Shown in pieces: positions 1,492 to 58,216 of a stretch of 64,000 nucleotides of DNA (the stretch's first letter is position 1; the number at the start of each line of letters is the position of its first letter). Source of the DNA: Sphingopyxis macrogoltabida (GTDB taxonomy: Bacteria > Pseudomonadota > Alphaproteobacteria > Sphingomonadales > Sphingomonadaceae); NCBI RefSeq assembly GCF_001314325.1, contig NZ_CP009429.1, positions 1,922,501 to 1,986,500 of the forward strand, read 5' to 3'. A program made the translations under genes and the position numbers. Below the pieces are notes generated by a model. The model worked only from the letters and a program-made list of their open reading frames with translations. It had not been told where the DNA came from and ran no database searches.

Positions 1492-2124
1492 TCAGCGCAG
1501 CCCCAGGCTCTTGTGCGTCTGGAGCGACAGGCGCCAGCGCGGGTCCGCCATCACCAGATCGATGCAGCGCCGGACATTGTCCTCCGCGTGCGGATCGTCG
1601 AGCGGCTGGATCAGCCGGTGCGCGAAATCGAGCGACGCGAGCATTTCGACGTCGCTGCCCGGCTGCGGCCAGACCAGTTTGAGTTCGTCACCACTCCGTT
1701 GCACCAGCTCGCTGCCCGCCTTGGGGCTGATACAGATCCAGTCGATGCTGCGCGGCACCGCCAGCGTGCCGTTGCTTTCGATCGCGATCGTGAAGCCTTG
1801 GGCATGGAGTGCGTCGATCAGCGCGTCATTGACCTGCAGCATCGGCTCGCCGCCGGTGAGCACGACATAGCGGTCCCCCGGCGCTTCACCCCAGCTTTCC
1901 GCAACGACTGCGGCAAGCGCCTCGGCATCGCGATATTTGCCACCGAGCGTCCCGTCGGTGCCGACGAAATCGGTATCGCAGAATTGGCAGATCGCCTTGG
2001 CCCGGTCCTTCTCACGCCCGGTCCAGAGGTTGCATCCGGCGAAGCGGCAGAAAACGGCGCGCCGGCCGGCCTGCGCGCCCTCCCCCTGAAGCGTGAGGAA
2101 AATCTCTTTGACCGCGTAGGTCAT
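1492..2124 (-). CDS. queE: 7-carboxy-7-deazaguanine synthase QueE
   Basis: Radical-SAM enzyme converting 6-carboxytetrahydropterin to 7-carboxy-7-deazaguanine in the queuosine/preQ0 pathway. The 210-residue protein carries the Burkholderia-type cluster motif C31-x14-C46-x2-C49 instead of CxxxCxxC, followed by the SAM-binding TGGEP and ESNGT motifs. The start is set by a four-base ATGA overlap with the queC stop (2121-2124), which suggests translational coupling. QueD is not in the window. Confidence 0.95.
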   Translation of the reverse strand: MTYAVKEIFLTLQGEGAQAGRRAVFCRFAGCNLWTGREKDRAKAICQFCDTDFVGTDGTLGGKYRDAEALAAVVAESWGEAPGDRYVVLTGGEPMLQVNDALIDALHAQGFTIAIESNGTLAVPRSIDWICISPKAGSELVQRSGDELKLVWPQPGSDVEMLASLDFAHRLIQPLDDPHAEDNVRRCIDLVMADPRWRLSLQTHKSLGLR

Positions 2125-2810
2125 GCGCCGGTGTAGCGGGTCGGGTCGGGCAGCCCGGCGTCGGCGAAGCCCTTGCTGCGCAGGCGGCAACTGTCGCACA
2201 GGCCGCAGTGGAGATGATCGGGGGTGGGATCATAGCAGGACCAGCTCATCCCCGCGTCCATGCCCAGCCGCGCCGCCTCGGCCGCGATGTCGGCCTTGGT
2301 CATATGCTGGAGCGGCGCGTGGATGTGGAAATCGACCCCCTTGTCGCCATCGCGCGTCGCGAGCCGGGCCAGATCCTGAAATCCGGCGATGAATTCGGGG
2401 CGGCAGTCGGGGTAGCCCGAATAGTCGAGCGCATTGACCCCGATGACGATGTCCTGCGCCTGCCGCGCTTCGGCAAGGCCGAGCGTCAGCGACAGGAAAA
2501 TGAGGTTGCGGGCGGGAACATAGGTAATCGGGACATCGTCGCCGACACCATCCTTGGGGACGTCAATATCAGCGGTCAGCGCCGAGCCGCCAAAGCGGCG
2601 AAGATCGAGCGGCAGGACGATATGCTCGGCCGCGCCGACATCGCGTGCAATGCGCGCAGCCGATTCCAGTTCGACGCGATGGCGCTGGTTATAATCGATC
2701 GTCAGCGCGACGATGCGCGCGCCGGCTTCGCGCGCAAGGCCCGCGCAAACCATCGAGTCCAGTCCGCCCGAGAGAAGGACGATCAGCGTTTTTCCGGCAA
2801 GATTCTGCAT
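2121..2810 (-). CDS. queC: 7-cyano-7-deazaguanine synthase QueC
   Basis: ATP-dependent conversion of 7-carboxy-7-deazaguanine to preQ0. The 229-residue protein has the N-type ATP pyrophosphatase loop SGGLDS (14-19) and four zinc-binding cysteines near the C-terminus (192, 202, 205, 208). The frame extends upstream, but the ATG at 2810 (MQNLAGKT) starts at the usual place for the family. It is first in the queC-queE operon. The leader, 2811 to about 2940, contains one 8-bp hairpin (CGGCCCTT with AAGGGCCG, near 2862-2891). I cannot match it to a known preQ1 riboswitch class. Confidence 0.95.
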   Translation of the reverse strand: MQNLAGKTLIVLLSGGLDSMVCAGLAREAGARIVALTIDYNQRHRVELESAARIARDVGAAEHIVLPLDLRRFGGSALTADIDVPKDGVGDDVPITYVPARNLIFLSLTLGLAEARQAQDIVIGVNALDYSGYPDCRPEFIAGFQDLARLATRDGDKGVDFHIHAPLQHMTKADIAAEAARLGMDAGMSWSCYDPTPDHLHCGLCDSCRLRSKGFADAGLPDPTRYTGA

Positions 2811-13617: not shown

Positions 13618-13635
13618 GCGGCGACATTTTCGTAT

Positions 13636-13713
13636 CCGTTCGCATCGAGCGAAGTCGAGATGCCCCTCGGTCGTGCACGCCTTCGGTGTCTCGACTTCGC
13701 TCGACACGAACGG
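13636..13713. repeat. Double-hairpin interspersed repeat, family A copy 1
   Basis: Inverted arms containing CGAGCGAAGTCGAGATG on the left and TGTCTCGACTTCGCTCG on the right, bounded by CCGTTCG and CGAACGG. It lies between the convergent DUF411 and dienelactone-hydrolase genes and may double as a transcription terminator. Same family as 32577-32657 and 53697-53776. Confidence 0.9.
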
Positions 13714-13717
13714 AAAG

Positions 13718-14596
13718 CTAGGCAGGCTTTAACTCGGCCTTGAACAGCTCGAGCATCCGGCCCCACGCCTTTTCGGCCGCGGCTTCGTTATAGGCGCGGC
13801 CGTCGGGCGGGCACCAGCCGTGCATCGCGCCTTCGTAGACCTCGACCTCGTGCCAGTGCGGCGACTGAGCGAGCACTTCCTTCAGCAAGACCTTCTCGTT
13901 CGGCGTTTCCTTGTCGTCATTGTCGGCGATGGCGAACAGATAGCCCGCGTTGGTATCGCCGATCAGCAGGTGCGGACTGTCGGGCTTGTCGGTCGCGACG
14001 CCGCCGCCGTGAAAGCTCGCCGCCGCGCCGACGCGGTTCGGGCTCAATGCGGCGGTATAGATCGTCATCGCGCCGCCCATGCAATAGCCGGTGGTACCGA
14101 TCCGGCGCTTCGTATCGACCTCGGGCTGCGCATCGAGGAACGCGAGATGCGCCTTCGCATCGACCTCCACCGGTGCCCGCGTGAGCTGTTTCAGATAACC
14201 GAAGAGTTTCTCGCGTACTTCGGGCACGTTGAAATCGTTCGTCGCGTCGACGACGGGCGACTTCTGCCAACGGTAGAAGGGATTGACGGTCAACACCGCA
14301 TAGCCCTCTGCGGCAAGGCGGTCGGCCATCTGGCGGAAGGCCGGACGTAAACCCCGGATATCGGGCCACACCAGCACGCCGGGATGCTTGCCCTCGGCCG
14401 GCGCGACGAAATAGGCGTCGGCGGTACCATCATCGGTCGTGATGGTGACGTCGCGACCCTTCACCGGCTTGCCCGCCATCGCCTGCACGGGGAGCATCGT
14501 CGCCAGTGCGCCGGCCCCGGCGAGCGCGGTAAAACTGCGCCGCGCGACGGGCATTCCGGCGCGATCGAGATCGGCTTCGGTAGCTTCGGTACACAT
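13718..14596 (-). CDS. Dienelactone hydrolase family protein, exported
   Basis: 292 residues. The N-terminus has an Arg pair followed by a hydrophobic stretch (ARRSFTALAGAGALA, then AMA near residue 42), a likely Tat signal, so it acts in the periplasm. The alpha/beta-hydrolase triad fits the DLH family: nucleophile Cys in GYCMGG, Asp in DNDDKE, His in AMHGW. Substrate unknown. ATG at 14596 has an AAGGAGAG ribosome site. An IS3 element now sits about 150 bases upstream and may have altered its promoter. Confidence 0.87.
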   Translation of the reverse strand: MCTEATEADLDRAGMPVARRSFTALAGAGALATMLPVQAMAGKPVKGRDVTITTDDGTADAYFVAPAEGKHPGVLVWPDIRGLRPAFRQMADRLAAEGYAVLTVNPFYRWQKSPVVDATNDFNVPEVREKLFGYLKQLTRAPVEVDAKAHLAFLDAQPEVDTKRRIGTTGYCMGGAMTIYTAALSPNRVGAAASFHGGGVATDKPDSPHLLIGDTNAGYLFAIADNDDKETPNEKVLLKEVLAQSPHWHEVEVYEGAMHGWCPPDGRAYNEAAAEKAWGRMLELFKAELKPA

Positions 14597-32565: not shown

Positions 32566-32576
32566 TTCACCCGATT

Positions 32577-32657
32577 CCGTTCGCATCGAGCGAAGTCGAG
32601 ATGCCCATCGTCGGCGCTTTCCCTTCGAGGTGTCTCGACTTCGCTCGACACGAGCGG
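32577..32657. repeat. Double-hairpin repeat, family A copy 2
   Basis: Same arms as the copy at 13636 (CGAGCGAAGTCGAGATG with TGTCTCGACTTCGCTCG), with a different spacer. It lies between the convergent DUF2147 and racemase-like genes and can act as terminator for both. Confidence 0.9.
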
Positions 32658-32672
32658 GATTTTTAGGCTGGC

Positions 32673-42533: not shown

Positions 42534-42548
42534 GCCTATCCCCAAAAC

Positions 42549-42628
42549 TCGTCGCCCCCGCGAAGGCGGGGGCCGCTATCAGTGTTGCGCAAGGTTGCCG
42601 GCGGCCCCCGCCTTCGCGGGGGCGACGA
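42549..42628. repeat. Double-hairpin repeat, family B copy 2
   Basis: TCGTCGCCCCCGCGAAGG...CCTTCGCGGGGGCGACGA arms around a mixed spacer, between the folP start and the ccrM stop on the same strand. It could separate the two transcripts. Confidence 0.9.
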
Positions 42629-42634
42629 ATGTTC

Positions 42635-46821: not shown

Positions 46822-48160
46822 GACGGTTCGCAGCCTCCTTTACGGCGTCGCATATCATATCGACGACCTGTTCAACTTGTCCGGCATCGTCGCCCTCGGC
46901 CATCACGCGGATCACCGGTTCGGTGCCCGAGGCGCGGATGACGAGACGCCCGCGCCCGGCGAGCGCCGCTTCGCCGTTGGCGATGGCGGTCTGGACATTG
47001 CCGTTTTCGAGCGGCTTGCCGCCCGCAAAGCGGACATTCTTCAAAAGCTGCGGCACCGGATCGAACTGGTGGAGCAATTCGCTCGCCGGCCGGTCCGCCG
47101 CGACCAGCTCGGCGAGCACCTGCAGCCCCGCCAGCGTGCCGTCGCCGGTCGTCGCATGGTCCGACAGGATCATATGCCCCGACTGTTCGCCGCCGACGTT
47201 GAAGCCGCCCTCTTTCATCCGTTCGAGGACATAGCGGTCGCCGACCTTGGTGCGTTCGAGCCGCAGCCCCTCGCCTTCGAGGAAGCGCTCGAGGCCAAGG
47301 TTCGACATCACCGTCGCGACGACGCCGCCGCCCTTCAGCCGTCCCTGCCGCGCCCAGCTCGCGCCGATCAGCCCCATGATCTGGTCGCCGTCGACGATCG
47401 CGCCCTTTTCGTCGACGACGATCAGCCGGTCGGCGTCGCCGTCGAGCGCGATACCGAGGTCGGCGCCGCTCGCAACCACGGTTTCCTGGAGCAATTGCGG
47501 TGCGGTCGAGCCGCATTTGTCGTTGATGTTGATGCCGTTGGGCGAGACCCCGACCGAAATCACGTCGGCGCCGAGTTCCCAGAACACCGTCGGCGCGCTG
47601 TTGTAAGCGGCGCCATTGGCGCAATCGAGGACGATCTTCAGCCCGTCGAGCCGGACCGATTCGGGCAGGCTCTGCTTCACCGCGTGGATATAACGGCCGC
47701 GCGCGTCCTCGATGCGCTTGGCGCGGCCGATCTGCGCCGGTTCGGCGAGCTTCGGCTCGCTGGCGAGCAGCATTTCGATCTGGATTTCGTCCTCGTCGGA
47801 CAATTTATAGCCGTCGGGCCCGAACAGCTTGATCCCGTTATCGTAGAAGGGGTTGTGGCTGGCCGACAGCATGACGCCGAGGTCGGCGCGCATCGAGCGC
47901 GTCAGCATCGCCACCGCCGGGGTCGGCATCGGCCCGACCTGCACGACGTCCATGCCGACGCTGGTGAAACCGGCGACGAGCGCGTTTTCGAGCATATAGC
48001 CCGAAATACGCGTATCCTTGCCGATGACGACGCGATGCTTGTGATCGCCGCGCAGGAAATGCGCGCCCGCCGCCATCCCGACGCGCATCGCGACCTCGAC
48101 GGTCATCGGAATCTGGTTGGTGAGCCCACGGATACCGTCGGTTCCGAAAAACTTGCGCAT
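46814..48160 (-). CDS. glmM: Phosphoglucosamine mutase GlmM
   Basis: 448 residues: opening [12 protein letters not shown], phosphoserine loop [15 protein letters not shown], metal site DGDADR and C-terminal [12 protein letters not shown]. Interconverts glucosamine-6- and -1-phosphate. ATG 48160 with AGAGG ribosome site chosen over one 27 bases upstream. Heads the glmM-DUF1272-thiD-rnhB-SDR run of same-strand genes. Confidence 0.96.
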
Positions 48161-48282
48161 GCCACCTCTGCTACTTAAGCGGAACATCAGGGCAAGAGCT
48201 TGCCCCGGAGACCCCGGGATGGCCCTAGGTCACCCGTTTTTGCTTGGCAAGCTGGCCGGAGGGGTTCGCAGGTGAATCGGTC

Positions 48283-49536
48283 GTGAAATCCGCATGGATC
48301 ATCCTCTCGGCGCTGATCGCCGGCATGTTGCTGGGCGTCGCGGTCGAGACGATCTCGGTCGAATGGGGCACGGCATCGCTGCCCTATATCGAATGGGTCG
48401 GCCTGCTCTGGCTCAATGCGCTCAAGATGACGATCATCCCGCTGATCGTCGCATTGCTGATCACCGGCATCACCGCGACCGCCGATGCCGCGCGGGCGGG
48501 TAAGCTGGCGGGCCGCGCCGTGGCGATCTTCATCGGCGCCAATCTGCTCGCCGGGCTGATGACCCTGCTGGTGCTGCCGCTCCTGCTGCGCGCCTTCCCG
48601 ATGTCCACCGCGGCGGCCGAAGGGCTGCGGCACGGGCTTGGCGGGGCGACCGATGCCGTCCCCTCGCCCACCTTCACCGATTTCGTCCTCGGCCTGATCC
48701 CGACCAATCCGATCGCCGCCGCCGCCGACACGTCGATCCTGCCGCTGATCGTCTTCACGACCATTTTCGCCTTCGCGATCAGCCGCATCGGCGCCGCCGA
48801 GCGCGCAACGCTGTCGGGATTTTTTAAGGCCTTGGGCGATGCGATGCTCGTCGTTATCGGCTGGGTTCTGGCGCTCGCGCCGCTCGGCGTCTTCGCGCTC
48901 GGCTATGCCCTCGCGGTCAAGGCCGGGGTCGCCGCTTTCGGCGGGCTCGTCCATTATGTGCTGATGCTGTCGGCGATCGGCGTCTGCACAATCATCCTCG
49001 GGATCGCGCTTGCGGTGTTCGTCGTCGGCATACCCTTGCCGCGCTTCGTCCGCGCGATGGTGCCGACCTTTGCGGTGGCGATCAGCACGCAAAGCTCGCT
49101 CGCCAGCCTGCCCGCGATGCTCAAATCGTCGGCCGAGCTCGGCGTCGAGCCCAAGAAGGCCGATATCGTCCTGCCGCTCGCGGTCGCCTTGTTCCGCTTT
49201 ACCAGCCCGGCGATGAACCTCGCGGTCGTCGTCTATGTCGCGTGGCTGTTCGGGGTCGAACTGACGCCGTTCGAAATGGCGGTCGGCCTCGGGGTTGCGC
49301 TTGCCGCGGCGCTTTCTTCGGTCAGCCTGCCCGGCTCGATCAGCTTCGTGACCTCGATCGCGCCGATCGCCATCGCGATGGGCGTGCCCGTCGCGCCGCT
49401 CGGCCTGCTCGTCGCGGTCGAGACATTTCCCGATATCTTCCGCACCCTCGGCAATGTCGTGGCGGACGTCGCGGCAACCAAATATGCCGCCGACGGTGTG
49501 GAAGACGACAGTCCCCCCGCAGGAGTCGCCCCATGA
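48283..49536 (+). CDS. Dicarboxylate/amino acid:cation symporter
   Basis: 417 residues with about eight helices and two re-entrant loops of the SDF/DAACS family; the AISTQSSLASLPAM serine-rich loop (near 265) and the FRFTSPAMNLAVVVYVAWL helix are typical. Imports C4-dicarboxylates or glutamate with protons or sodium. GTG at 48283 preferred. Its stop overlaps the following gene (ATGA). Confidence 0.88.
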   Translation: MKSAWIILSALIAGMLLGVAVETISVEWGTASLPYIEWVGLLWLNALKMTIIPLIVALLITGITATADAARAGKLAGRAVAIFIGANLLAGLMTLLVLPLLLRAFPMSTAAAEGLRHGLGGATDAVPSPTFTDFVLGLIPTNPIAAAADTSILPLIVFTTIFAFAISRIGAAERATLSGFFKALGDAMLVVIGWVLALAPLGVFALGYALAVKAGVAAFGGLVHYVLMLSAIGVCTIILGIALAVFVVGIPLPRFVRAMVPTFAVAISTQSSLASLPAMLKSSAELGVEPKKADIVLPLAVALFRFTSPAMNLAVVVYVAWLFGVELTPFEMAVGLGVALAAALSSVSLPGSISFVTSIAPIAIAMGVPVAPLGLLVAVETFPDIFRTLGNVVADVAATKYAADGVEDDSPPAGVAP

Positions 49537-52398: not shown

Positions 52399-53805
52399 CT
52401 ATCTGTCATAGGCTTTCGGCAACGCGCCCTCGCCCGGCGTCGCATAACGGTCGCGCAGGCGATCCTGCCGGGTCGTCAGCGACTGCGCCTTGCCGTCGAT
52501 CCACACGGCGGTCGGCCGGCTGCCGAGTTCGAGCGGATCGTCATCCCAGATCACGACGTCGCCGACGCGGCCGGGGCGCAGCGATCCGATGCTGCCCTCC
52601 ATGCCGACCGCGCGCGCCGGTGCACTGCTGATCGAGGCGAAGGCCTGATCCCAGCTCAGCCCGCTTGCACCCGGCAGCTTCGCCAGCCCGACGAGATTGC
52701 CGGCATATTGGGTGGCATAGCCCATTTTATGCGCATCGTCGTCGTCGAAGACACCGACCGAGATGTCGACGCCCGCCGCTTTCAATCGCCCAGCGTTCGA
52801 CTGCGTCGCGCCGAGCCGTTCGAAACTGTCGGGCAGGTCGCTGAGCGGCGACACCAGCACCGGCACCTTGGCCGCCGCGATCTCGCGCGCGACCAGCCAG
52901 CCTTCGGTGACCCCGACAAGGACGAGCTTCAGCGCCGGAAATTCGCTCTTCAGCTTGATGACGTTCAATATATCGGCGGCGCGGTCGACGCGGACGAACA
53001 GCGGCGTCGTGCCGTCGATCACTCGCACCAGCGCCTCGGCGTCGGCGCGCTGGATCATCGCGTCATTGCCCCATTCGGCCAAGGTTGCGGGATTGCGCGC
53101 ATAGCTGCGTGCGGCGAGCAATTGTTCGCGGAACAAGAGGAAGGTCGCGGCGCGGCTGCCGCCCGCCTTCGCCGACCCGTCCTCGCCGAACGCGACGAAT
53201 TGCAGCGCGCGCGGACGCGTCACCATGTCCATGTCGTCGGCAAGGTCGACGACCGCGCCCTGCCCGGCGAACAAATTGCTGCTCGCGCTCGGCGCGACGA
53301 TCGCGCGGGTGACGCCCGAGGCGCGGTTGACCGCGACCGGCGAGCCCATCGGGTTGAGCGCGGGCGCGATGTCGAGCCCGGCGGAAAAGCGCGAACGCGC
53401 CGCGCCGCGATCGTTCGTTCCGGTAACGGCGTCGACCTCGACCAGCCCGACGCGGCTGAACGCCGCAACGATGCCGGGCGTCACATAGCGGCCCTGCGCA
53501 TCGACGCGCTCGACCCCGGCGGGCACGGCAACGCCGGCGCCCGCCGCGACGACCTTGCCGCCGCGGATGACGACCGAACCGCCCTCGACCGGGGCGCTGC
53601 CGTCGCCGATGACGAGCTTTGCATTGACGATCGCGACGTCCTGCGCGGCGGCGGGCGTGGTAAGCGCCAGGGCTGCAACCAATGCACTCCCCAATTCCGC
53701 TCGTGTCGAGCGAAGTCGAGACACCCCGAAGGCGCGCACGACTGATGGGCATCTCGACTTCGCTCGATGCGAACGGAAATTGAGGAAGGTGACGAGATTT
53801 CTCAT
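52399..53805 (-). CDS. Amidohydrolase-like protein with repeat inside the signal peptide
   Basis: 468 residues. Start ATG 53805 overlaps the previous stop and has AGGGAG ahead. Residues about 11-37 (RSHRAKSRCPSV, then RLRSTRAE) are read straight through a family A repeat, pushing the hydrophobic core (LGSALVAALALTTPAAA) to about 38-55. The usual D-x-H-x-H metal site is replaced (TPGIVAAFSRVGLVEVD), and the late HDDAN loop reads DDDDAH, so metal binding is doubtful. Paired with an intact amidohydrolase and a peptide transporter. Confidence 0.85.
   Translation of the reverse strand: MRNLVTFLNFRSHRAKSRCPSVVRAFGVSRLRSTRAELGSALVAALALTTPAAAQDVAIVNAKLVIGDGSAPVEGGSVVIRGGKVVAAGAGVAVPAGVERVDAQGRYVTPGIVAAFSRVGLVEVDAVTGTNDRGAARSRFSAGLDIAPALNPMGSPVAVNRASGVTRAIVAPSASSNLFAGQGAVVDLADDMDMVTRPRALQFVAFGEDGSAKAGGSRAATFLLFREQLLAARSYARNPATLAEWGNDAMIQRADAEALVRVIDGTTPLFVRVDRAADILNVIKLKSEFPALKLVLVGVTEGWLVAREIAAAKVPVLVSPLSDLPDSFERLGATQSNAGRLKAAGVDISVGVFDDDDAHKMGYATQYAGNLVGLAKLPGASGLSWDQAFASISSAPARAVGMEGSIGSLRPGRVGDVVIWDDDPLELGSRPTAVWIDGKAQSLTTRQDRLRDRYATPGEGALPKAYDR
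53697..53776. repeat. Double-hairpin repeat, family A copy 3, inside a gene
   Basis: Same arms as copies at 13636 and 32577 but inverted in orientation. It lies wholly within the 5' coding region of the amidohydrolase-like gene (53805 start) and leaves its frame open. Confidence 0.9.
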
Positions 53806-55214
53806 TTCACATCTCCCTCGCCCGGCTGGCCGAGCTCGAAGTCGCTCACCGGCCGCCGTTTCGGGTCCATCGCGTCGAACATCAACGCGCCGTCGATCCA
53901 CACCTTTTCGGGGCGCGTATAGGCGCTGAACGGATTGCCGTTCCACAGCACGACGTCGGCCATCTTGCCGGGTTTCAGGCTGCCCGTCTTGTCGCCGATC
54001 CCCAGCGCCTTCGCCGGGTTCCACGACAGCCAGGTCCACGCCTGTTCGTCGCTGATCTGCATCCCCATGCGGCGGCCGGCCTTCAGCGCCTTCGCCGCTT
54101 CCTGATTGAGCCGCTGGATCTGGTTGGCGTCGTCCGAATGGACGATCGTGCAGGCGCCGGCCTTGTATACCAGCGGGATATTCTCGTTCACGCTGTCATA
54201 GGCTTCCATCTTGAAGCCCCACCAGTCGGCCCACATCGCCGAACAAATGCCCTCTTTCGCAAGGATATCGGCGATCTTGTACGCTTCGACCGCGTGGTGG
54301 AAGGTCGACACTTTGTAACCGAATTCCTTCGACATATCGATGACCAGCGCCATTTCGTCGGCGCGGTAGCAATGATTGTGGACGAGGATTTCGCCCGCCA
54401 ACACCCCCGCGAGCGTTTCCATCGCCAGGTCGCGGTCGACGACCTTGCCGTCGTCCATCTTCTTCTTGTACGCCGCCGCTTTCTGCCACGTCGCGCGGTT
54501 GACCGCGAAATTGCCCATGCGGGTCGAGGGCATCCGCCCCTTGGCGCCATAGACGCGCTTCGGATTCTCGCCGCACGCCATTTTGAGGCCATAGGGCGCG
54601 CCCGGGAATTTCATCCCCTGCACGGTGCGCGAGGGCACATTCTTGAGCGTGATCGAGCGGCCGCCCATCAGGTTCGCGCTGCCCGGCAATATCTGGAGCG
54701 ACGTCACGCCGCCATTGGCCAGCGCGCGGCTGAAGCCCGGATCCTGCGGCCAGACGCTATGTTCGGACCAGACCTCGGGCGTCGTCGGCGACGTCGCCTC
54801 ATTGCCGTCCGAATGCGCATCGACGCTGGGCGAAGGATAGTCGCCGAGGTGGCTGTGGATGTCGATCACCCCGGGGGTAACGAACTTGCCGGTCCCGTCG
54901 ACGATATCGGCGCCCTCGGGGATCGGTGTGTCGGAACCGCCGACCGCTTCGACCTTGCCGCCCGCGAGCAGCACGGTGCCATTGTCGATCCGCCCACCCT
55001 CGCCGTCGAAGATGGTGACGCCGCGCACCGCCGTCGGGCGGCCGGGGTAAGGCTTGTAGGTCGAGGGATAGGGATCCTTGTCGAACTTGACCGGCTTCGC
55101 CGCCGGCGCGGCGGGCTCGTCGCCCGCCGACTTCGCATCGGACCCCGTCGCCGCACAACCGGCGAACGCCAGCGACACCGCAGCCAGCAGGCTGCCCTTC
55201 ACGCCCCGGATCAT
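53802..55214 (-). CDS. Amidohydrolase lipoprotein (imidazolonepropionase-like)
   Basis: 470 residues: lipobox AGC (Cys20) anchors it to the envelope. Metal-dependent hydrolase site intact: DIHSHLG near 118, HNHCYRADE and FHH further on, and HSDDANQ as the late Asp loop. Probably cleaves a peptide or cyclic amide in the periplasm. Three bases after the POT transporter stop. Confidence 0.9.
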   Translation of the reverse strand: MIRGVKGSLLAAVSLAFAGCAATGSDAKSAGDEPAAPAAKPVKFDKDPYPSTYKPYPGRPTAVRGVTIFDGEGGRIDNGTVLLAGGKVEAVGGSDTPIPEGADIVDGTGKFVTPGVIDIHSHLGDYPSPSVDAHSDGNEATSPTTPEVWSEHSVWPQDPGFSRALANGGVTSLQILPGSANLMGGRSITLKNVPSRTVQGMKFPGAPYGLKMACGENPKRVYGAKGRMPSTRMGNFAVNRATWQKAAAYKKKMDDGKVVDRDLAMETLAGVLAGEILVHNHCYRADEMALVIDMSKEFGYKVSTFHHAVEAYKIADILAKEGICSAMWADWWGFKMEAYDSVNENIPLVYKAGACTIVHSDDANQIQRLNQEAAKALKAGRRMGMQISDEQAWTWLSWNPAKALGIGDKTGSLKPGKMADVVLWNGNPFSAYTRPEKVWIDGALMFDAMDPKRRPVSDFELGQPGEGDVK

Positions 55215-55217
55215 CGC

Positions 55218-56858
55218 TTACGCCCCCTTCGGTTCGGGATGGGTGCCCGCAGCCTGCGGTTCGCCCAGTTCCTCGCGACCGGCGATGTCGCGGTCGCGCA
55301 GCGTGTCGAGGTGCATCCACTTCTTCACGATCGGCGACAGCGCGAGCACGACGACGCTGACGCCGATGGTGATCAGGCCGATTTCCCAATAGATGCCGAG
55401 CGTCGCTTCCTTGGTCATGTTGCCGCTTTCGCCGCCCGTCGCCTCGCCGATCTTGCCGGCGACGAAATTGCCGACCGCGGTCATGTAGAACCATGCCCCC
55501 ATGATCAGCGACGCGAGGAAGCTCGGCGCCAGCCGGTTCATCGCGCTGAGCCCGACCGGCGACAGGCAAAGCTCGCCCGTCGTGTGGAGCAGATAGAGCA
55601 TGAAGACGAAGAAGACCGGCGTCGCGACCGCGGGCCCGACGCTGTTCGCGCCCCAGACAAAAACGAGGAAGCCAAGGCCGACCTGGGCGAGCGCCAGCGC
55701 GAACTTCGCGGGCGCCGACGGTTCGAGCCCGCGCTTGCCGAGCCATTGCCACAGCGCCGCAAAGACCGGCGCAAAGAGGATGATGTAGATGGGGTTGATC
55801 GACTGGAACACCGACGCGGGAACGCCGCCCTTGTCGACAAAACGGTCGGTATAGAGGTTGAAGCTGCCGCCGGCCTGTTCGAACAGACCCCAGAACAGCG
55901 GGTTCAATGCGATCAGGAACAGGATCGCGAACATGCGCTCGCGCGGTTCCTTGTCGAGCTTGAAACTTTCGTAGAGGACATAGCCGAGCAGCGCGAGGCC
56001 CGAGACGATCAGGATATTCTGGATGACGTCCTGATACTGGACCAGCGCCCACATCACCGCGACCGCGGCGATGCCGATGCCATAGATCGAAATTTCCTTG
56101 TTGCGCGCCAGCGGCGCCGGTGCCTCGCCCGCGCCGAGCAGGACGTTCTTTCCGAGGACGAAGACGATCAGGCCGGCGACCATGCCGATGCCGGCGAGGC
56201 CGAAGCCATAGGCCCAGCCGATCTTCTGACCGAGATAGCCGACGAGGATCGTGCCGAGCGCGGCGCCGACGTTAATCCCCATGTAGAAAATGGTGTAGGC
56301 GGCGTCGCGGCGGGCATCGGTCAGACGATAGAGCTGCCCGACCATCACCGAGATGTTCGCTTTCAGGAAGCCCGAGCCGACGATGATCAGCGCCAGCGCC
56401 AGCCAGAAGACGTTGATCGCGCCTTCGGACTGCTTGACCGCAGCATCGGTGATCCCGTGATCACCCTCGACCGCCATGAACAAATGGCCGAGCGCGAGCA
56501 GGACGCCGCCGAACAGCACCGCCTTGCGCTGCCCCAGATAGCGGTCGGCCAGATAGCCGCCGAGCACCGGGGTGATGTACACAAGGCTGGTATAGGCTCC
56601 ATAGATCAGGTTCGATTTGCCGTCCGAAAACAGCCAGTGCTGCGTCAGATAGAAAATCAGCAACGCGCGCATGCCGTAATAGGAGAAACGCTCCCACATT
56701 TCGGCGAAGAACAACATGTACAGGCCCTTGGGGTGGCCAGCGAATTCGGGTTTCTTGCTGCCTGCAATCAGTGCCCCGATGGTCAGGAACACCCCCAGCA
56801 CGACCAGCGCGATCACCGCGATCCAGTCGCCTTCGTCCCAAAGGCCCATGTCTTTCAT
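55218..56858 (-). CDS. POT-family proton-coupled peptide transporter
   Basis: 546 residues with 12-14 helices. Proton/peptide signature EMWERFSYYGMRALLIFYL (ExxERFxYYG) near 52-70 and GGYLADRYLGQRK are intact. Imports di- and tripeptides. First of a tight three-gene unit with two amidohydrolases, which suggests peptide scavenging. The promoter gap to the divergent nitroreductase gene is about 190 bases. Confidence 0.93.
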   Translation of the reverse strand: MKDMGLWDEGDWIAVIALVVLGVFLTIGALIAGSKKPEFAGHPKGLYMLFFAEMWERFSYYGMRALLIFYLTQHWLFSDGKSNLIYGAYTSLVYITPVLGGYLADRYLGQRKAVLFGGVLLALGHLFMAVEGDHGITDAAVKQSEGAINVFWLALALIIVGSGFLKANISVMVGQLYRLTDARRDAAYTIFYMGINVGAALGTILVGYLGQKIGWAYGFGLAGIGMVAGLIVFVLGKNVLLGAGEAPAPLARNKEISIYGIGIAAVAVMWALVQYQDVIQNILIVSGLALLGYVLYESFKLDKEPRERMFAILFLIALNPLFWGLFEQAGGSFNLYTDRFVDKGGVPASVFQSINPIYIILFAPVFAALWQWLGKRGLEPSAPAKFALALAQVGLGFLVFVWGANSVGPAVATPVFFVFMLYLLHTTGELCLSPVGLSAMNRLAPSFLASLIMGAWFYMTAVGNFVAGKIGEATGGESGNMTKEATLGIYWEIGLITIGVSVVVLALSPIVKKWMHLDTLRDRDIAGREELGEPQAAGTHPEPKGA

Positions 56859-58132: not shown

Positions 58133-58216
58133 CGTCATCCCGGGCTTGACCCGGGACCCGCCTTTCTTGGCACGCTCGAAAGGCAAGGCAGGCCCCGGGT
58201 CAAGCCCGGGGTGACG
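58133..58216. repeat. Double-hairpin repeat, family B copy 4
   Basis: CGTCATCCCGGGCTTGACCC on the left and GGGTCAAGCCCGGGGTGACG on the right around a 40-base spacer that can itself pair. It sits between the convergent GntR and prsT genes. Confidence 0.9.

Follow-up and report, generated by a model that had tools for sequence, protein, structure and literature searches.

Palindromic repeats of several families lie in frame behind overlapping start codons in Sphingopyxis and related Sphingomonadaceae

Palindromes that lie in frame within genes otherwise looking functional have been described in Rickettsia as RPEs, and one product of such a gene, guanylate kinase, is made and active (PMC2229807). 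RPEs occupy many unrelated genes, with 44 insertions in R. conorii (PMC10969869), and measure about 105-150 bp (PMC2229807, PMC10969869). REPs, inverted pairs of small hairpins, are reported as mostly intercistronic and sometimes located in ORFs, more at the N-terminus than at the C-terminus; recB of two Xanthomonas species carries different REPs at about the same site (PMC3733652). REP families of the CGTC type, defined by a CGTC tag, a stem of 8-9 bp usually beginning with A or T, a loop of 4-5 nt and a CCA-like tail, occur in sphingomonads, and the tRNA synthetase and truB genes of S. alaskensis are named as REP carriers (PMC3733652). In Yersinia, a MITE forms part of a signal peptide (described among PMC3733652, PMC2229807, PMC2759123 and PMC10969869). 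Intragenic REPs and RPEs have so far mostly been described singly, case by case.

The window analysed here, a stretch of 64,000 nucleotides from Sphingopyxis macrogoltabida, carries a palindrome of a repeat family designated A inside the 5' end of an amidohydrolase-family gene (Table 1). The encoded protein of 468 residues matched Pfam Amidohydro_3 (E 8.4e-11) and Amidohydro_1 (E 5.2e-08); both the amidohydrolase domain and an N-terminal Sec-type signal are present, the h-region and the AXA motif of the latter having been read from the sequence. The gene is co-directional with those of a transporter and of a 470-residue amidohydrolase that precede it. Beginning at nt 28, after codon 9 of the ORF, the inverted repeat spans 84 bp and consists of two 32-nt arms (53695-53726 and 53747-53778) that are 84% complementary and separated by 20 nt. 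The N-terminal frame MRNLVTFLN-FRSHRAKSRCPSVVRAFGVSRLRSTRA-ELGSALVAALALTTPAAAQD is open, with about 27 residues added by the insert. The first-pass annotation had placed a family A repeat in the coding part of this gene at 53697-53776; the repeat does lie there in an open frame, as one of 36 elements of the genome, and by its arms it is slightly wider (53695-53778). Ahead of the hydrophobic core, the net charge ranges from +5 to +9 (mean 7.3) over the 23 Sphingopyxis alleles with an insert, and from 0 to +1 over 54 alleles without one, for which residues 2-4 only were counted.

Table 1. Features of the window around the amidohydrolase gene and further copies of the family A repeat
Feature	Position	Strand	Basis
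Amidohydrolase-family gene, 468 aa, predicted exported	52399..53805	-	ORF; ATG 53805-53803
Hydrophobic and cleavage region ELGSALVAALALTTPAAAQ	53641..53697	-	Translation; third-position bias among orthologues
TTG codon 38, candidate alternative start	53692..53694	-	Follows repeat
Family A palindrome, two inverted hairpins, putatively translated in frame, ~27 residues	53695..53778	-	Inverted-repeat search
Codons 1-9 ahead of palindrome	53779..53805	-	Variation without third-position excess
ATGA, start codon sharing bases with the stop of the preceding gene	53802..53805	-	Sequence
GGAG, Shine-Dalgarno-like, within the end of the upstream gene	53813..53816	-	Sequence
Upstream amidohydrolase gene, 470 aa, stop overlaps next start	53802..55214	-	ORF; Pfam Amidohydro_1 E 8.8e-15
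POT-family peptide transporter, first gene of likely operon	55218..56858	-	Pfam PTR2 E 2e-58; TIGR00924 above cut-off
Second family A copy, judged intergenic	13635..13726	.	Without coding-like frame running out (L025)
Third family A copy, judged intergenic	32576..32670	.	Without coding-like frame running out (L027)

Family A is abundant in the genome of the window. Its exact 16-mer core TCGAGCGAAGTCGAGA occurs at 33+34 = 67 sites in 5.75 Mb, with none in the reversed control, and, when up to 3 mismatches are allowed, the window holds 8 matches where 1.93 are expected, a number reached in 0 of 100 shuffles; these counts rule out a chance palindrome. The 36 elements comprise 31 inverted pairs and 5 singles, with the spacing of paired cores mostly 48 (14 pairs) or 46 (9 pairs); the amidohydrolase insert belongs to the 46 class and, by eye, its loop is 2 positions off that of the copy at C1:1741528. 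With terminal inverted repeats (CCGTTCG...CGAACGG), many copies and no coding capacity of its own, the family has the features of a MITE, and copy number together with presence or absence among alleles suggests that it is mobile. RAYT-driven mobility in this genome was rejected: Y1_Tnp (PF01797) had no match there, with 5 of 14 control genomes matching, and the 15 of 80 Sphingopyxis genomes with PF01797 matches (L257-L266 and others) do not include that of the window. No target duplication or transposase was identified for family A in a parent-element search of PF01797 alone, none of the alleles compared formed a clean filled/empty pair with unchanged flanks, and Rfam gave no match in the window at gathering scores. 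Two other palindromes of the window deserve mention, one at 42544-42633 with CCCCCGCGAAGGCGGGGG arms, which resembles a family (B) found in frame in the signal peptides of relatives, and an inverted pair at 58133-58216 (CGTCATCCCGGGCTTGACCCGGGACCC...) that looks like a published CGTC-type REP.

Family A is stop-poor, with a mean of 5.2 of 6 frames open, so that an open frame by itself is weak evidence. A codon-usage scan found a coding-like frame running out of 9 of the 36 elements, four of which also have an in-frame upstream start (L018, L020, L029, L038); the two further copies in the window, which the annotation had taken to lie between genes, are indeed without such a frame. An upstream ATGA linked to a coding-like frame was found for just 2 of the 36, the amidohydrolase copy and L020. 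The process would hence be rare per element, and the in-frame copies would be the survivors of a rare event. At L020 (C1:1416325-1416388) the in-frame ATGA precedes the repeat by 23 nt and a coding-like frame of some length runs on downstream, but the ATG after the repeat looks a more natural start than the upstream ATGA.

Our comparative analysis covered 80 Sphingopyxis genomes, 77 of which have an orthologue whose 5' end could be classed. An in-frame palindrome sits at the same point in 23 of these 77, and the other 54 are empty, mostly with the form M(I/M)RALLLSAAALIALPAAAQD. All 23 insert alleles are open, in frame and begin with ATGA. Nine carry a long family A form like that of the window (A-long), eight a shorter one (A-short, coded segment ...SRAKSRDAKAGADVSRLRSTR...) and six a palindrome of family B (...RAPAKAGAHLR...MGPCLRRGT...), which is unrelated to family A in sequence. 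The expectation of the first-pass annotation that homologues should lack the insert thus failed within the genus, where the same position even takes an unrelated palindrome. In Sphingopyxis sp. LC363 (G072), the orthologue was present twice on the 50.8-kb contig C27 in opposite orientations near the contig ends, at 1555-2793 (-) and 47976-49214 (+) (L228, L238), which may reflect an assembly artefact or an inverted duplication.

A family-wide scan at E 1e-140 matched 114 of 397 genomes, of which 103 lie outside the genus, and 100 of these 103 orthologues were read (all except G465, G423 and G462). An in-frame start of the ATGA, GTGA or TTGA type is present in 99 of the 100 (exception L312), as judged by this motif rather than by a TGA traced in each case to the upstream gene. 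Inserts were found in 9 of the 100, spread over six genus groups. They are of family A type in L272, L281, L282, L283, L291, L294 and L305, of family D in L287, and of a CGTC REP type (family C) in Sphingomonas jatrophae (L273, also L244), where the insert (CGTCATCCTGAACTTGTTTCAGAATCCA) fits the published description with one stem mismatch. Members of other genera thus carry family A at this point, an observation of the kind that the first-pass annotation had named as counter-evidence; empty orthologues exist, however, in five of the six insert-bearing groups, the sixth being a single genome, and separate insertion explains this spread better than an old protein segment. An old conserved protein segment was rejected on these grounds and on that of the unrelated palindrome in the same place. 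The insert-free signal peptide resembles the form seen in Erythrobacter and Hyphomonadaceae (L250-L252, L254, L255), hence it looks older and the inserts look derived.

The same pattern was met in two further genes. With the family B insert plus signal core as the query in the genus, one non-orthologous gene was found, ccmH of G014 (Pfam CcmH, E 1.4e-42), which follows a thioredoxin-like gene, overlaps it by GTGA and has a signal core different from that of the amidohydrolase. The second gene, sufS (Aminotran_5, E 1e-121), came to light through the list of matches to the A-short segment; it lies behind sufD (SUFBD_core, E 3.1e-46), again with a GTGA overlap. Both genes were read at their 30 best-matching loci, out of 79 genomes for ccmH and 75 for sufS, and all 60 loci have an in-frame ATGA, GTGA or TTGA start. 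Palindromes occupy 8 of the best 30 ccmH loci, the remaining 22 being empty: family B in G014, G062, G068 and G099, a type ending in DPRFRGG in G029, G030 and G031, and a single hairpin in G091. For sufS, a palindrome is present at 23 of the best 30 loci, from family A, D, G or a further type, and absent from the other 7 (VSTTTALRTFPDVRAD type), a ratio that is not the genus rate since the query began with IRDQ, adjoining the insert, and so ranked insert alleles higher; among the 45 unread sufS rows, 18 have the ORF length of the empty allele (408 or 410 aa), 26 are longer and 1 is shorter. The sufS gene of the window's own genome holds an in-frame palindrome of family G (CCCTCCCGC..GCGGGAGGG, C1:673677-673767; L431, L433), whose hairpin occurs at 9 places in that genome (two of them the sufS arms) and at none in the reversed control. 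SufS is a cytosolic enzyme, and tolerance of signal peptides alone cannot therefore account for the location of the inserts.

Family A is read in sufS in a frame other than in the amidohydrolase gene. Protein searches with the coded segment alone, over 5.8 billion proteins, returned just orthologues (4 of 4 and 8 of 8); such searches cannot pick up the repeat when it is read in a different frame, and sufS was missed there for this reason. When loci with open family A frames were inspected visually, in one frame, 26 of 29 gave a frame, with just 5'-UTR or antisense cases recognised, and several sufS inserts among the palindrome-plus-core matches (e.g., G003:C35, G007:C1, G064:C3, G085:C228) at first went unrecognised. 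A mobile cassette of palindrome and signal peptide was considered and rejected: with both as query in the genus, no other gene with a family A cassette was among the matches listed. Neither the parallels in sufS and ccmH nor the overlapping ATGA start had been part of the first-pass annotation.

The comparison of sequences established a common position and frame for several families, recurring at three genes. In the window gene, in ccmH of G014 and in sufS of G029, the overlap of start and stop was confirmed at the level of single bases. Sought from nt 10 to 75, the longest inverted repeat begins at nt 17-43 of the gene in all 54 alleles (23 amidohydrolase, 23 sufS, 8 ccmH), with insert spans of 22-145 bp. 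Across the three genes, none of the 63 inserts read (these 54 and the 9 from other genera) contains a stop or leaves the frame. The spacing of the 31 paired family A elements in the window's genome, amidohydrolase copy included, falls into the three classes modulo 3 as 17/11/3; these elements are not confined to one length class, yet every insert is in frame, and the frame therefore appears to be selected. Counting each combination of gene, family and genus once, with families assigned by eye, there are 14 or 15 insertions, and all being in frame by chance has a probability of about (1/3)^14 = 2e-7 if independence is assumed.

We consider it probable that these observations reflect a recurrent process, in which palindromes arrive at overlapping starts and persist only in frame, as translated segments. 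REP- or MITE-like palindromes of several unrelated families would accumulate at gene junctions within operons. An overlapping ATGA or GTGA start leaves no spacer, and palindromes would thus come to lie within the opening codons of the gene that follows, where they fit only past the initiation region. The start codon and Shine-Dalgarno sequence are fixed within the upstream gene, so that just in-frame, stop-free insertions would last. The elements would have arrived by insertion, and in the amidohydrolase the translated palindrome would serve as a long, basic, otherwise unconstrained n-region, with the Sec-type hydrophobic core and AXA site kept and export presumably continuing; in sufS it would form an N-terminal extension, tolerated rather than beneficial. 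In favour of this reading, mRNA folding predicts similar accessibility of the start region in both kinds of allele, with an unpaired fraction of 0.24-0.44 in 7 insert alleles and 0.34-0.40 in 4 empty ones.

The recurrence of the position could alternatively reflect a useful structure, namely an mRNA hairpin just past the ribosome footprint that protects the upstream message or sets the protein ratio, with the peptide incidental. The presence of unrelated palindromes at one place, all starting at nt 17-43, fits such a role, and the seven inserts folded alone gave strong predicted hairpins (-37 to -94 kcal/mol); REPs are moreover described as lying mostly between co-directional or convergent genes and as probably transcribed (PMC3733652). 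We nevertheless regard this explanation as doubtful. A steady benefit is not visible in the near-random turnover of inserts on the tree or in the empty state of 54 of 77 amidohydrolase and 22 of 30 ccmH loci read, and some inserts are single or decayed hairpins (ccmH of G091, sufS of G014). A bolder form of the idea appears rather improbable to us: overlapping start/stop junctions of Sphingomonadaceae would be preferred landing or retention sites, at which the hairpin tunes termination-reinitiation or decay between coupled genes and the peptide is just carried. If it were true, the unrelated palindromes would be interchangeable parts of one regulatory slot.

The distribution of inserts within Sphingopyxis was compared with a tree built from the body of the gene, signal region excluded (76 rows; the partly masked orthologue of G033 was omitted). 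The four states require at least 20 changes against a shuffled mean of 22.1, a value as low being reached in 16 of 200 shuffles. Taken singly, the empty state requires 17 changes against 19.9 (as low in 27 of 500) and A-short 6 against 7.8 (as low in 8 of 500), and the labels are thus weakly clustered; the figures for A-long are 8 against 8.7 and for family B 6 against 5.9. Sister species differ in state, as in G010 (A-short) and G034 (B) or G018 (A-long) and G020 (none). Sister or near pairs of unlike state number 16; their identity over the final 50 nt ahead of the ATG is 86-100%, which is the species level, and 84-98% over the 51 nt that follow the cleavage site, with just 58-81% at the signal-peptide end.

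This scatter might also stem from one arrival of each palindrome type in the genus, followed by short recombination tracts that move signal-peptide alleles between species, a serious possibility that we judge somewhat less likely than its opposite. The first 24 nt after the ATG track the insert class beyond phylogeny (0 of 2000 permutations, 23 alleles); such an association is absent from the 60 nt upstream (p 0.85) and weak in the core (p 0.08). For the most part, insert alleles also have in common a recognisable core that differs from the empty one, and by eye the G034 allele looks like a mosaic, its first codons like those of G010 and the next like those of G031. On the other hand, a nearest-neighbour scan found no clear recombination signal in the flanks: clustering did not clearly rise near the signal peptide, windows with p<0.05 being both adjacent and far off, and identity stays at the species level up to the ATG and just after AQD. 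Exchange within the genus also leaves the six other genera, sufS and ccmH unexplained. Between genera and between genes, separate insertions are the simpler reading; recombinational spread of alleles may explain part of the scatter in Sphingopyxis, where both repeated insertion and transfer of short alleles fit the data.

Translation of the palindrome depends on the start codon in use. Within the 23 insert alleles, a Shine-Dalgarno sequence precedes the overlapping start in 23 by a loose and in 19 by a strict definition, and in the 54 empty alleles in 54 and 43, respectively. Initiation could instead take place after or inside the palindrome, at TTG codon 38, at a GTG of the 3' arm or at the ATG of family B, the repeat being an intercistronic spacer and the ATGA a relic. 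The TTG just downstream of the repeat, to which the first-pass annotation had drawn attention, is indeed the start of some 431-residue public records, and later in-frame ATG, GTG or TTG codons occur before the core in 22 of the 23 alleles, five with a strict Shine-Dalgarno sequence; the 3' arms of families A and B often supply a GTG or ATG followed by basic residues, and PMC3733652 argues similarly for many N-terminal REPs. The aligned TTG, however, is present in only 16 of the 23 alleles and missing in 7, has a strict Shine-Dalgarno sequence at none of the 16, and would give an n-region without positive charge (MGSALVAALAL...). G012 has no ATG, GTG or TTG from codon 13 to the hydrophobic core and thus no alternative, and a late start does not require the frame with the overlapping start that every insert allele keeps.

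Variation by codon position bears on the same question. Minority letters at positions 1/2/3 number 31/23/53 (A-long) and 15/4/40 (A-short) in the hydrophobic core, a strong third-position bias among orthologues from which we infer that this region is translated. The corresponding values are 12/11/13 and 6/16/17 in the palindrome and 25/21/22 and 14/17/15 in the codons before it; the third-position excess is absent, hence no sign of selection on amino acids is seen there. The lack of amino-acid constraint upstream is in line with a late start, and the palindrome with its preceding codons may be either translated but free to vary or not translated. Overall, the sequence features make translation from the overlapping ATG quite likely, and initiation behind or within the palindrome unlikely. 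Among the 120 listed of 6158 public matches, records from insert-bearing strains give 466-469 or 483 aa in some cases and 423-431 aa in others; entries P0055, P0058, P0060, P0073, P0103 and P0105, with 423, 427 or 431 aa, leave out the residues coded by the palindrome and start behind them, so that the signal peptide or its basic n-region is partly lost in them. A palindrome at the start may explain these disagreeing start calls and missing signal-peptide parts.

A simple placing rule thus seems to hold, with a palindrome of any family located behind an overlapping start, past the initiation region and in frame. The many likely independent insertions at matched sites constitute a natural experiment, on which translation of N-terminal palindromes, export with very long basic n-regions and the effect of hairpins at reinitiation sites can be tested. 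Intragenic REPs are already known; recurrence at overlapping starts was not found in literature on palindromes with overlapping genes, signal peptides or Sphingopyxis, as far as the text available extends, and single S. alaskensis cases may be tabulated in supplements. Overlapping starts are not mentioned in the available part of PMC3733652, which treats many N-terminal REPs as probably untranslated; here, no allele read departs from the frame set by the overlapping start.

Among the described systems, family A shares with REPINs the two inverted hairpins and the short spacer. It differs from CGTC REPs in its ends (CCGTTCG/CGAACGG) and its stems (GTGTC or GCATC, 36 elements by eye), and from GTAG REPs and RAYT REPINs in that no GTAG was seen by eye at the ends of the 36 elements and the genome lacks PF01797. 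The likeness to RPEs proposed in the first-pass annotation was well founded as regards frame and position in the signal-peptide n-region, the comparison being one of published description; the fit in size is partial, at 84 bp here and 22-145 bp across alleles. A difference from RPEs is that one point in a given gene, just after an overlapping start, is taken repeatedly by elements of several unrelated families; the hosts also differ, being Sphingomonadaceae. In the enterobacterial MITEs ERIC/RU-1 and RU-2 (YPAL), reported as fused to ORFs, the element helps to form the predicted signal sequence of a putative protein of 144 aa. In contrast, the element in the amidohydrolase gene would provide a conserved enzyme with no more than its basic n-region, as other repeat families do in relatives.
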